From the NCBI GenBank assembly GCA_938017505.1, contig CALIKV010000012.1, forward strand, positions 1-45,358: DNA of 45,358 bases, written 5' to 3'. The position numbers and the translations under genes were made by a program. The DNA is from an uncultured Sulfolobales archaeon (GTDB lineage: Archaea > Thermoproteota > Thermoprotei_A > Sulfolobales > NBVN01). The notes under the pieces were generated by a model. That model saw only the letters and a list, made by a program, of their open reading frames with translations. It did not search any database and had not been told where the DNA came from. Below, in pieces: positions 24,400 through 36,160 of this stretch; the stretch's first letter is position 1, and every line of letters starts with the position of its first letter.

Positions 24400-25773
24400 C
24401 CTAGACTCTGCGATGTTAATCAGTTTCCTCACAACTTCCAGGGCGTCTCTACCAAGGATTCTTATCATGGCTTCCTTACCGAGGCAACCTTTATCGTATA
24501 TGATGTCAGGGGTCCTCCCCGCCATCTTGAACGCCTCGTCGACCACCCACTTCAAGCTACTGCCTTCCACTCTCCTCACCTCCTCAGGCTCCTTCAGTCT
24601 ATCAACGAAGACCACGGAGTAGCCAAGCTCAACAGCCCTCTTAATGAATCCCTCGTCGAACTTGATGTTCAACGCTGCTCTGACTTCAGGGTCTCTCCTT
24701 AACGTTTCGATGATCAGTCTAGCTAAGTGTGACGACGCGCCGAACCTCACGGGACCCACTACCTTAACCCCATTCTCAAACTTGACGATCCTGCCCGAAA
24801 CGCCAGCTACATCTTCGATGCCTCTCACGTATTGCGGCGGCACCGACATCACTAAGTTCATACCTACTTCAGGGACGATCTCAGCAACCTTGCTTGAATT
24901 CCTGAGTAACTCTCTTAATGCCTCCTCAACGCTGCTTAGCACGTGGTACTTATGTGCGGGGACGTCTAACCAGGCGACCGGGTTGACGGGGCAGTGCCCC
25001 CTACCCACTCTAACCCCTAGCTCTATTGCTTTGGTGACGAACTCCTTAGCCCTCCTAACGGATTCGTAGATATCCAGACCCTTAGCTATCTCAGCAGCTA
25101 TAGCTGCTGAGAAGATGCACCCGGTCCCATGAGTACAACCAACGATCCTCGACCCGCTTAAGACGTAGTGCCTATCCCCCCAGTAAAGGACGTCGACGGA
25201 CTCCTCACCGCTTAGGTGACCGCCCTTAACGACGGCGGCCTCACATCCAAAGTCTTCAACGATCCTCTTAGCCGCCAGCTTGGAGTCCTCGACATTCCTG
25301 ATCCTAACCCCTGTAAGGTTCTCAGCCTCCGGGGTGTTAGGTGTTACCACCCTAGCCAGAGGCAATAACTCCTTCGTCAAGGCATTCACGGCATCCTCCC
25401 TAAGTAATCTAGCCCCGCTCTTAGCGATCATAACTGGGTCGACAACCAGAGGGAACGAGAACTCCCTAACCGCGTCAGCCACCACGTGAATTATGTCGCT
25501 GTTGCTCAGCATCCCGGTCTTGCCCGCATCAATCCCCATGTCCTCAGCGACGGCCTTGATCTGTTTGTAAACGACTTCAGGAGGGATATCATGGATAGCC
25601 GTTACCTCATACGTGTTCTGAGCCGTAACGCTGGTCAACGCGACGGCTCCGTGAACGCCTAGAGCAGCGAACGTCTTCAAGTCCGCCTCGATACCGGCGC
25701 CCCCGCCTGAGTCGCTGCCCGCTATAGTTATCGCAACTCTCCAAAACTTATCACCGCTCAAGAGGCTCACCAC
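24385..25773 (-). CDS. thiDN: Bifunctional ThiD-ThiN: HMP(-P) kinase and thiamine phosphate synthase
   Basis: Thiamine pathway enzyme of 462 residues. The N-terminal ThiD domain (about 1-270) phosphorylates hydroxymethylpyrimidine; it shows [20 protein letters not shown] and [17 protein letters not shown] with the catalytic GTGC loop. The C-terminal ThiN domain (about 280-462) joins the pyrimidine and thiazole halves, replacing ThiE in many archaea; it starts near VEEALRELL and includes [15 protein letters not shown]. It is divergent from thi4-tenA and shares the AT-rich gap. A TATA box centred near 25795 is about 25 bases before the GTG start, predicting a leaderless mRNA. Confidence 0.92.
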
Positions 25774-33207: not shown

Positions 33208-34458
33208 CTAATACGTCTGGTAGTAATGCGGCTTAACGACGTAGTTCTCTATGGTCGCGTTACTGGAGACCTGCTCATGAGGCCACACCCTAACATTCAT
33301 TAACTTGACGTTATCGCCTATAGTTGCGTCATCGCCTATAACGCTGTTTATTAGCGTGCAGTTATCGCCGATGAGGGCGTGCCTACCCACTATAGTATCA
33401 ACAACCCTGACTCTGTCCCCCGTACGCGTTCTATCCATTAAGGCGGATCTGACTATCTCGCACCTATTACCAACCACAACGTAGTTATCTATAGTGGAGT
33501 CTTCTATAAGACATCTACTCCCTAAATTCACGTGCCTCCCTATAAGGGCTCTTCCGGACACTATTAAGTCGCCCTCGCTGATCCTCCTGTTTATGTCTGT
33601 GTGGAGTTTCATGGAAGTCTGGGATTTACCCATGCCGAGAACGCCTTTCGAGATCTCCTTCGCCTCGAGATCCTCTGGTCTCAGGCTGTATAGAAGGTAT
33701 ATCATCGCTCTCAAGTACCTCTCAGGAGTCCCCACATCGAACCAGTACCCATTCATTAAATACCCGTAAACAGGGTAGCCGAGCTCTATCAACCTAGGTA
33801 TTACGTCGTTGCCGAAATCCATCCGCCCACCCTCAAGCAGCTTGCGTCCCTCCCCAACCCTGAAGAAGTCCGTTATCTCCGGGTTCACTATGTAGATTCC
33901 CGTGTTAGCCAGCCTGCTCGGGGCTTCCTTAGGCCTCGGCTTCTCGACAAACCTCCTCAACCTCAGCCCACTATTGACGTCCGCCACACCGAACTCTCGA
34001 ACGTCCTCAACTTCCTTGAGGACTATTGTCATGAACGCCTTGTTCGTCAGGTGATTCTTGAAAACTTCCTGAACGTCCAGGTCGAATAGGTTATCTCCTT
34101 GAATTACGACCACGGGCTCCCTGATCCCGTAGTACTCCATGACTATCCTGACGGCGTCGGCGTTGCCTAGAGTGTCATACCTAGGCATATATCGAATCCT
34201 TAGATCCTCTCTCAAGCCGTACCTCTCCCTAAACCAATACCCCTCTCTAAAGTAGTCGAAAAGATCCCTGTAGTTGTAGTACCCTCTAACACCTAGGTAA
34301 ACCTCCTTAACACCGGACTTAGCCAGCCTGAGAAGAGATAGCTCCAGGACGGGTTTGTTAAGGAACCTAACGAAGCTCTTCGAGGTCTCTATCGTGAGAG
34401 GCCTCAATCTAACGGCCTCACCGCCTATGGGCACTACTGCAACTCGTAACTCAGACAA
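33208..34458 (-). CDS. Sugar nucleotidyltransferase (GlgC-like), glycogen pathway
   Basis: NTP-transferase expected to make ADP- or UDP-glucose for the adjacent synthase. The N-terminal nucleotidyl domain has GGEAVRLRPLTIETSKSF (a variant of GGxGTRLxPLT...PK) and VIQGDNLFDL with the metal-binding Asp. Residues about 290-400 form a left-handed beta-helix with hexapeptide repeats (RHVNLGSRCLIEDSTI, VGRHALIGDNCTLINSVI). At 416 residues it has the GlgC-type length. In the glycine-rich loop GEA replaces GGxGT, so the GxGTRL motif is imperfect. Start is TTG 34458 with GGGGG upstream and a TATA-like AGTTTAAGTAA element about 20 bases away. Confidence 0.82.
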   Translation of the reverse strand: MSELRVAVVPIGGEAVRLRPLTIETSKSFVRFLNKPVLELSLLRLAKSGVKEVYLGVRGYYNYRDLFDYFREGYWFRERYGLREDLRIRYMPRYDTLGNADAVRIVMEYYGIREPVVVIQGDNLFDLDVQEVFKNHLTNKAFMTIVLKEVEDVREFGVADVNSGLRLRRFVEKPRPKEAPSRLANTGIYIVNPEITDFFRVGEGRKLLEGGRMDFGNDVIPRLIELGYPVYGYLMNGYWFDVGTPERYLRAMIYLLYSLRPEDLEAKEISKGVLGMGKSQTSMKLHTDINRRISEGDLIVSGRALIGRHVNLGSRCLIEDSTIDNYVVVGNRCEIVRSALMDRTRTGDRVRVVDTIVGRHALIGDNCTLINSVIGDDATIGDNVKLMNVRVWPHEQVSSNATIENYVVKPHYYQTY

Positions 34459-34495
34459 TCAAGCCCCCAAGAATATTACTTAAACAACGTTAAAA

Positions 34496-34650
34496 GAGCT
34501 GTTCCCCGAGCCGCTCGGGGAACGATCTCCCTACCCTAGATGAGGGCTCATTCCGTTGAGCTCAACAACCACCTACGACCCCGCGGAAGCAACGAAATCT
34601 CTGCGAGCGAGGTGGAGATCCCTGGACATGTTAATGAATATCCAGGAATA
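34496..34650. ncRNA. Highly structured intergenic element, possible non-coding RNA (B)
   Basis: Between the divergent nucleotidyltransferase and AAA genes. A near-perfect inverted repeat, GTTCCCCGAGC (34501-34511) and GCTCGGGGAAC (34513-34523), is followed by GATCTCC (34524-34530), which pairs with GGAGATC (34614-34620) to enclose 83 bases, and then by CCTGGA (34621-34626) with TCCAGG (34641-34646). Three consecutive stems back to back are strong evidence for a folded RNA or a DNA cruciform. Each neighbouring gene has its own TATA box closer to its start, so the element is probably not a leader. Strand and function are unknown. Confidence 0.45.
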
Positions 34651-34690
34651 AAAGGTCTCACGAGTCACTAACACGCTGCCAGCGAGTTAT

Positions 34691-34700
34691 GTTTATATGC
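34691..34700 (+). promoter_or_regulatory. TATA box of AAA ATPase gene
   Basis: GTTTATATGC is centred about 34 bases before the ATG at 34730. It implies a short leader of about 10 bases and separates this gene's promoter from the structured element to its left. Confidence 0.55.
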
Positions 34701-34729
34701 GTTGTTTTGTATCCTAGATTGGGTTAAAG

Positions 34730-36160
34730 ATGACCAGGAGGCTTAGAGACGCTAAAGTGCTTTGGAGTAACCTGTATAGGGACGTCAAGAACCTCTTCAT
34801 CGCCTACGTCCCCTGCCGGGAGTCTTACGTATCGTATAAGTTGCTCGCGACTCTTAGCAAACATTACAACTACCTCGAGAACATAGATAACCTGGACTTC
34901 GCCTCCTACTTGAAGATCAGGTCTAGAGTGCCCGTGAGGGACGGCGACATCTCATTCTCTCTAGTCCCCCTCTCACTCAACGTCTTCTCGAAAGTCGTGT
35001 CCAAGAAGAAGTACTACGGTATCCTAGGGCTTGTTCTAAACGGCTTTAAGAAGGCTGAGTTGCTTTCAGCATCGATAACGACGACAGAGGGCAAGGACCT
35101 AGAAGGCTTAAGACCGGTAGTGGTTTTAGTAGGTCCCGACGAGGATGATGAGAGAATTAAGAGTAGGATTACTGAGATGGCCACTGGCTTCTGGATAAGG
35201 TTGGTGGAGGATCTGAAGAGACAGAGGATCGACATAACCCCGTATGAGGTGCTTCCCCCGCTTTCAGTGGTTTCTTTAAGGTTTGTTGAGCACAATGAGT
35301 TGAGGGTCATCGTCAGCGACGGCAATGAATACAGGGATATCAGGATACCCATCAGGAAGCCGTCCTGGTCTTTAAGCGACCTGCCTCAGAAGCTCATCGA
35401 GGAGATAAGGGTTGTCTTAGTTAACCCGATCCTTAAGGGGCTCTCATTCTCTGTGAGAGGCGCCTTCGTGACAGGGCCTCCAGGAGTCGGTAAGACGGTG
35501 ATGACTGAGGCCCTAGCCTCGGCGCTGAACCTCAACGTCATTGAGTTAAGGCCTCAGAACTACAGGTCCATGTGGTATGGGGCTACGGAGAAGGCGCTTA
35601 ACGCGATCTTCCAGCAGATCTTCAAGCAGAGGAGCAAGGTCGCCCTAGTTATAGATGACGCGGAATTCATCTCCTCAAGGAAATACACAATCCATGAGGC
35701 GCACATAAGCGAGATCTCAACAATCCTGTATCACTTACAGAAACCCGAGAGACCTTTCACTGTGCTTACAGCCAACAACCCCGATCTAATAGACCCAGCC
35801 CTCCTCAGACCCGGCAGGATAGACATCGCAATCCTCCTGGGCTACCCGGATAAGGAGATGAGGAGGAAGGCGCTCCTGAACAACTTAAGGAGGTACTCAA
35901 TAAGCTTCTCAGACAACTCGATAATCGACAGAGTGATTGAGCTAAGTAAGTGGTTTTCACTAGCAGAGCTCGACGCCTTCTTAAGACTGGCCGCGAGCAA
36001 GGGTGATGGCATCATAGGCATTGAGGAGGTTGAGTGGGCTAAGAAGAAGTTCACTGTGAGCGTTGATGAAAGGAGGTCTATTCAGGAGTACTTAAGGTGG
36101 TGGGCTAGGAAATTCCAGGGTATAGTGATAACCTACCTACCCATGGATAACGAGATTTAA
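34730..36160 (+). CDS. AAA ATPase of unknown role
   Basis: A 476-residue AAA protein. The N-terminal half (about 1-235) is unfamiliar and lacks obvious motifs. The ATPase core starts with Walker A GPPGVGKT (residues 249-256, K255), then Walker B ALVIDDAEF with D309-D310, sensor 1 TANNPD, and LLRPGRID with the arginine finger. The usual Walker B Glu is replaced by D310, with Glu at 312. The lid domain and a basic C-terminus (YLRWWARKFQ) follow. The core is closest to Cdc48/Vps4-type AAA modules. The gene ends 4 bases inside the convergent DUF429 gene. Confidence 0.85.
   Translation: MTRRLRDAKVLWSNLYRDVKNLFIAYVPCRESYVSYKLLATLSKHYNYLENIDNLDFASYLKIRSRVPVRDGDISFSLVPLSLNVFSKVVSKKKYYGILGLVLNGFKKAELLSASITTTEGKDLEGLRPVVVLVGPDEDDERIKSRITEMATGFWIRLVEDLKRQRIDITPYEVLPPLSVVSLRFVEHNELRVIVSDGNEYRDIRIPIRKPSWSLSDLPQKLIEEIRVVLVNPILKGLSFSVRGAFVTGPPGVGKTVMTEALASALNLNVIELRPQNYRSMWYGATEKALNAIFQQIFKQRSKVALVIDDAEFISSRKYTIHEAHISEISTILYHLQKPERPFTVLTANNPDLIDPALLRPGRIDIAILLGYPDKEMRRKALLNNLRRYSISFSDNSIIDRVIELSKWFSLAELDAFLRLAASKGDGIIGIEEVEWAKKKFTVSVDERRSIQEYLRWWARKFQGIVITYLPMDNEI

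Follow-up and report, generated by a model that had tools for sequence, protein, structure and literature searches.

Introduction

IS607 elements recombine at GG, and their reRNA extends past the element boundary, according to the account of ISXfa1 in PMC10711439; the reRNA principle itself is introduced in PMC8612924. Bacterial IS607 reRNAs of the RAGATH-18 kind, among them that of ISFba1, are described in PMC11061315, an archaeal IS605-type reRNA with other ends in PMC11043419, and circular forms of such RNAs in archaea in PMC12558985. In Haloquadratum, transposase-free PATEs outnumber transposons in the data summarised in PMC3119063.

IS607 TnpB guide RNAs and ORF-less transposon derivatives of the TnpB type are already known kinds. 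ORF-less elements with guide RNAs have reportedly been described in Geobacillus, and for that reason we do not claim the principle of gene-less guide-RNA elements as new. The archaeal IS607 RNA family described below, or its gene-less amplification, was not found in print within the open-licence literature searched.

We analysed a stretch of 45,358 nucleotides, referred to throughout as the window, from a genome (G000) of 1.46 Mb in 46 contigs that is 82% complete. With considerable confidence, we interpret positions 34495–34655 as the right end, present as a solo copy, of a transposon of the IS607 family from hyperthermophilic archaea; in the window it is most likely an immobile remnant. Like the reRNAs of ISXfa1 (PMC10711439) and ISFba1/RAGATH-18 (PMC11061315), the family has a structured right-end RNA associated with a serine-recombinase TnpA and TnpB, a scaffold of about 150–190 nt, a right end in GG and the flank directly next to it. 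Unlike the IS607 reRNA of ISFba1, which PMC11061315 presents as independent of coding sequence, the RNA here overlaps the tnpB frame. The family also differs from both in being archaeal and in lacking a match to RAGATH-18 in 10 family loci (E<=1); RAGATH-18 was likewise unmatched in the window and in 34400–34760 (E<=10). With the IS605-type TnpB reRNA of Sulfolobus islandicus, from a related archaeal group, it shares a TnpB guide RNA that covers the tnpB terminus together with the right end; the right end reported for that element in PMC11043419 is TTCAC and its predicted insertion TTTAA, whereas the family here ends in AAACGG and goes with a TnpA of IS607 type, and we therefore rejected an IS605-type reRNA. 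The gene-less copies found in relatives resemble PATEs as characterised in PMC3119063, that is, short ORF-less TnpB-type derivatives with palindromes near their ends; PATEs are IS605-related there, whereas these copies are IS607-type and keep the guide-RNA scaffold. The window copy, compared with PATEs, consists of a right end only and lies between two host genes.

Results and Discussion

Stems and fold of the window copy

The first-pass annotation had pointed to three back-to-back stems in a divergent intergenic region, and our analysis confirmed them, directly adjoining and without spacers. These are an 11-bp inverted repeat (GTTCCCCGAGC at 34501–34511 and GCTCGGGGAAC at 34513–34523, with 34512 as the single middle base), a 7-pair stem (GATCTCC at 34524–34530 with GGAGATC at 34614–34620, 83 bases inside) and a 6-pair stem (CCTGGA at 34621–34626 with TCCAGG at 34641–34646). 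The features of the region are as follows.

33208–34458, minus strand: sugar-phosphate nucleotidyltransferase, rmlA/glgC-like (NCBIfam matches shown all below cut-offs)
34495–34655, plus strand: copy of the IS607-type TnpB reRNA/omegaRNA scaffold (transposon right end), with covariance-model boundaries, positions 1–194 of 194
34501–34523, plus strand: 11-bp hairpin, in the model alignment helix 1 with apical helix 2 deleted
34524–34620, plus strand: 7-pair stem GATCTCC/GGAGATC, outside the family consensus folds
34544–34563, plus strand: family helix 3 (GGGCT with AGCTC) and conserved loop with CCGTTG, from the model alignment
34569–34615, plus strand: family helix 4 (CCACC with GGTGG) with helix 5 inside, from the model alignment
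34621–34646, plus strand: family helix 6, a near-terminal hairpin, from the model alignment
34647–34655, plus strand: right-end terminal motif AATAAAAGG (family consensus GACAAACGG), from alignments
34656–34675, plus strand: flanking DNA, a putative guide if the RNA is made and read through (role proposed from what PMC8612924 and PMC10711439 describe)
34730–36160, plus strand: AAA ATPase (NCBIfam matches below cut-offs)

Perfect inverted repeats with arms of at least 11 and a loop of at most 8 were expected 0.25 times per 45 kb in 20 first-order Markov resamples, versus two in the window, at 34501–34523 and 25089–25112. Because the window has this second one, the palindrome at 34501–34523 is not decisive by itself. 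The stem region folded better than all 200 shuffles on both strands (z −4.3 on the plus strand, −3.2 on the minus strand), and the fold of 34495–34655 gave a z of −4.8. At the level of sequence, homology detected through a covariance model is what we take as the decisive test of the element's reality, above the palindrome. The other inverted repeat, at 25089–25112, is a perfect 12-bp palindrome, TCTCAGCAGCTATAGCTGCTGAGA.

A dispersed family with strong covariation

A DNA search with 34460–34729 revealed two more copies in the window's genome, 76% and 66% identical over the matched parts; several relatives have copies too, genome G011 at least seven. A covariance model constructed from 15 aligned copies from other genomes, with no sequence of the window's genome included, matched the window once, at 34495–34655 on the plus strand (69.4 bits, E=3e-21), and matched the window's genome three times strongly (98.9, 72.1 and 69.4 bits) and twice weakly (20.0 and 15.1 bits). 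Under stricter filters and with the candidates per genome capped, at least 60 of the 98 genomes searched, the window's own counted, had a match at E<=0.001, and family copies were located at unrelated places across many genomes. The covariance search for homologues in related genomes proposed in the first-pass annotation thus yielded homologues with compensatory changes. The annotation had expected such changes in homologous intergenic regions; four genus mates hold no copy there, and it is the homologues elsewhere that covary. A test limited to homologous intergenic regions would therefore mislead, since the homologues are located elsewhere.

Rfam 15 did not recognise the family in 10 of its loci at E<=1, the four matches given falling outside the copies used. 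The whole window had no Rfam match at gathering thresholds, and 34400–34760 gave, at E<=10, two matches far under their gathering scores, neither over the stems. No tRNA or tmRNA was found. The analysis also supplies a covariance model with which this archaeal IS607 omegaRNA family, unrecognised in the Rfam search, can be found.

Among the 15 model sequences, both-side changes occurred in 20 of 43 pairs versus 10.2 in shuffles; the both-side-changed cells numbered 50, compared with 16.1 in shuffled and 6–14 in slid controls, and the covariation score was 0.251 versus 0.126 shuffled. Thirty matches outside the model set, 10 of them closely alike sequences from one genome, gave 27 of 43 pairs and 127 cells versus 30.5 in an alignment fitted to the model. 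Helix 5 was the weakest helix, with 62% of its cells paired, and helix 2 had no both-side changes in the 15-sequence set and two such pairs in the 30-match set. Alignments fitted to the model for the three copies of the window's genome had 85.8% of the model pairs formed, 100% of the helix 4 cells paired, and 11 both-side-changed pairs, a number reached by 19 of 500 shuffles of these three sequences. We conclude that the family is a structured RNA with strong covariation.

The perfect 11-bp palindrome could in principle point to DNA itself as the functional form, either a cruciform, a protein-binding palindrome or an intrinsic terminator, and on the minus strand AGCTCTTTTA comes directly after the palindrome, which there has a terminator-like score. 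We regard this as highly improbable. One terminator-like site was found versus 0.5 expected in shuffles of the same stretch, the palindrome admits a reading as family helix 1, and across the family as a whole all six helices show covariation at their RNA pairs, helix 2 least. No promoter-like site of the bacterial kind was found.

Not every stem of the window copy belongs to the family structure. The 7-pair stem around 83 bases is not among the consensus pairs, the consensus having CCACC/GGTGG just inside it, and the register of 34501–34523 is uncertain, a plain sequence alignment placing the hairpin otherwise than the covariance model does. The copy is 161 nt long versus about 195 in the family, ends in AAAAGG, an altered terminal motif, and is 65–73% identical to 11 other copies.

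Association with TnpB and IS607-type TnpA

In nine relatives we compared 65 TnpB C-terminal domain hits over the cut-off, from eight of the nine genomes, with 150 listed of 177 RNA matches. For 16 of the 65 hits, versus 0.08 expected, an RNA of the same orientation lay −17 to +78 nt from the domain, and seven of these 16 RNAs start at +6; the other 49 hits had no adjoining RNA among the 150 matches listed of 177. The tnpB frame runs through the RNA in G014, and 19 of the 30 loci listed from the genome survey have a TnpB match of at least 150 aa reaching into the RNA, with a short C-terminal TnpB stretch only at 10 and none at one. The TnpB of the family scores 66 bits with TIGR01766 (cut-off 32), 46 bits with PF07282 (cut-off 26.3) and 77.7 with NF040570 (guided_TnpB), the last below its cut-off of 100.

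Directly upstream, 12 of the 16 loci with TnpB and RNA have a full-length IS607-type TnpA frame (210–218 aa), two a truncated TnpA and two none that was recognised. Two of the 12 frames were profile-tested, the other 10 being recognised by sequence; PF00239 gave 97 bits on two proteins, and NF033518 (IS607 transposase) gave 239.7 bits (cut-off 110) on one. From the TnpB adjacency, the tnpB frames running into the RNA and the IS607-type TnpA upstream, we assign the RNA family to an archaeal IS607 family as its reRNA/omegaRNA, for which TnpB binding and guided cleavage are predicted.

Upstream of the RNA, a complete element would encode the serine recombinase TnpA and the RNA-guided nuclease TnpB. 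The terminal portion of tnpB would, with the right end, give a structured RNA of about 195 nt, and the flanking DNA next to it would be the guide. In this picture gene order, overlap and structure were observed here, and how the RNA is transcribed, bound and used as a guide is taken from published IS605/IS607 work. In the window's own genus, G002:C2:342594–342953 (L036) has a diverged TnpB, an IS607-like TnpA frame upstream (by eye) and a right-end RNA of only 56.8 bits, and represents a second IS607-like branch within the genus.

Gene-less copies in relatives

G011 has 51 RNA-model matches (E<=0.001) versus seven TnpB domain hits over the cut-off; in this genome guide-RNA elements have multiplied greatly apart from TnpB genes. 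We sampled 40 copies, 20 each from G011 and G018, chosen as not beside a TnpB domain hit, and found a TnpA or TnpB match within 600 bp upstream of one (39 of 40 without). In 27 of the 40 (18 of 20 and 9 of 20), the RNA is preceded within 125 nt by a left-end pattern, GG[GA][CT]TG followed by TT or AAA. A similar left end, GGGCTGTTT, precedes TnpA in four of 10 left regions viewed by eye, the others differing. Short gene-less copies, with left end and RNA, are common in relatives; the 10 viewed have, by eye, a TATA-like stretch separating the left end from the RNA. Their right flanks vary from copy to copy.

Gene-less derivatives that keep left end, TATA-like stretch and RNA would need TnpA in trans, and TnpB as well if the RNA is used. 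Such RNAs can be numerous far from a nuclease gene, which makes the use of TnpB guides in trans testable. We put forward, as a rather doubtful extension, that in some hyperthermophilic archaea gene-less IS607 elements, each with left end, promoter and complete omegaRNA and at about 50 copies per genome, use their own flanks as guides and are served in trans by a few TnpA and TnpB proteins. If this were true, one nuclease would police dozens of sites, and the copy in the window would belong to such a set as one that still folds, with a guide spanning the site into which it inserted.

The intergenic region and its neighbours

The AAA ATPase is 80–81% identical to proteins of MAGs titled Sulfolobales or Desulfurococcaceae archaeon and 63% identical to that of the named relative Zestosphaera tikiterensis. 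Its orthologues are 80–86% identical and in four of four genus mates have the same neighbour gene beside them, and in the homologous intergenic region of all four, with both flanking genes present, the covariance model finds no copy. An exact empty site was not recovered, the intergenic regions of the genus mates being too diverged for placing boundaries. The first-pass annotation had given each flanking gene its own TATA box; that of the plus-strand gene, GTTTATATG at 34691–34699, is common to all five genus members compared, and that of the minus-strand gene was judged by eye.

From this arrangement the annotation had proposed an independent RNA or a DNA structure, a reading that was right in placing a structured RNA outside both flanking genes and that does not fit the evidence in making it an independent RNA of the region. 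The position between two divergent promoters and the stable fold would suit an independent small-RNA gene or a riboregulator of the flanking genes. Between the two conserved genes, nevertheless, four of four genus mates yielded no copy of the element, and its homologues occur scattered and in association with TnpB and IS607 TnpA, so that we judge a resident RNA gene extremely improbable. The evidence points instead to the guide-RNA segment of an IS607 right end, found at unrelated genomic places, whose position between these two divergent genes would be specific to the window's lineage. In this way, the guide RNA of a mobile element accounts for a structured intergenic region.

The same intergenic region of one genus mate, L105:2970–3320 on the minus strand (G004:C9:7328–7678), holds a different repeated element that is unmatched by the RNA model and has six matches in G004 and 20 in G003. 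Four of its matches (G004:C14, G003:C7, G003:C12 and G002:C3) lie 13–14 nt after TnpB domains; in that genus mate the region has apparently received, in a separate event, a right end belonging to a different TnpB family.

The solo state of the window copy

None of the three RNA loci of the window's genome has a TnpB match. In this 82%-complete genome, no TnpB family hit over the cut-off and no match to the family TnpB was found, and no IS607 TnpA at E<=10; at that completeness either gene may lie outside the assembled part. Two sub-threshold TnpB hits are presumably reverse gyrase and a TiaS-like protein. Before the window copy the left-end search gave only GCTGTT, at chance level (251 of 500 shuffles score as well). 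By its sequence, the window copy is thus a probable solo right end of an IS607 element. Since no left end is recognisable, the apical part of the first hairpin is gone and neither TnpB nor IS607 TnpA was found, the copy is most likely a non-autonomous, immobile remnant without present function, the last of these steps being inferred.

We rejected the low model score as a sign of decay, since TnpB-linked copies of the same genus score 53.6–72 bits, and one of these, in G002, has an IS607-like TnpA frame upstream (by eye). The fold that is kept and the score normal for the genus both speak against simple decay. They would also fit a working, trans-acting guide RNA made from a nearby TATA-like sequence, with TnpB supplied by the unsampled part of the genome or by another element, and cleaving the empty site or acting on guide-matching DNA. 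Its score within the 53.6–72 bit range, the retained fold (z −4.8, and 85.8% of pairs across the three genomic copies), a genome only 82% complete, and gene-less copies in relatives that have a TATA-like stretch (by eye) and outnumber TnpB genes (51 versus 7 in G011) are consistent with such a role. Weighing against it are the TnpB not found in the window's genome, the candidate guide at 34656–34675 that has no second match in the genome at up to three mismatches, the missing left end, the altered terminal motif and the length of 161 rather than about 195 nt, and we consider a working guide distinctly unlikely. A TldR-like domesticated regulator was rejected, no TnpB-like gene and no second guide match having been found in the genome. 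The immobile remnant of an IS607 right end is the interpretation that we prefer.

Additional loci

Two further observations concern other loci. At G018:C11:180153–180332, in a different genus, a weak family copy (42.6 bits) lies about 300 bp before an orthologue of the AAA ATPase. That locus has no nucleotidyltransferase match, and the position of the copy upstream of the orthologous ATPase is possibly a coincidence. At L133, two HgcC matches score below the gathering threshold of 50, with 29.3 bits at 2385–2512 on the minus strand and 29.9 bits at 2739–2869 on the plus strand. The former shares part of its length with a weak hit of the omegaRNA model at 2491–2681 on the minus strand (37.6 bits), and there may be a link between HgcC-like RNAs and the guide RNAs of transposons.
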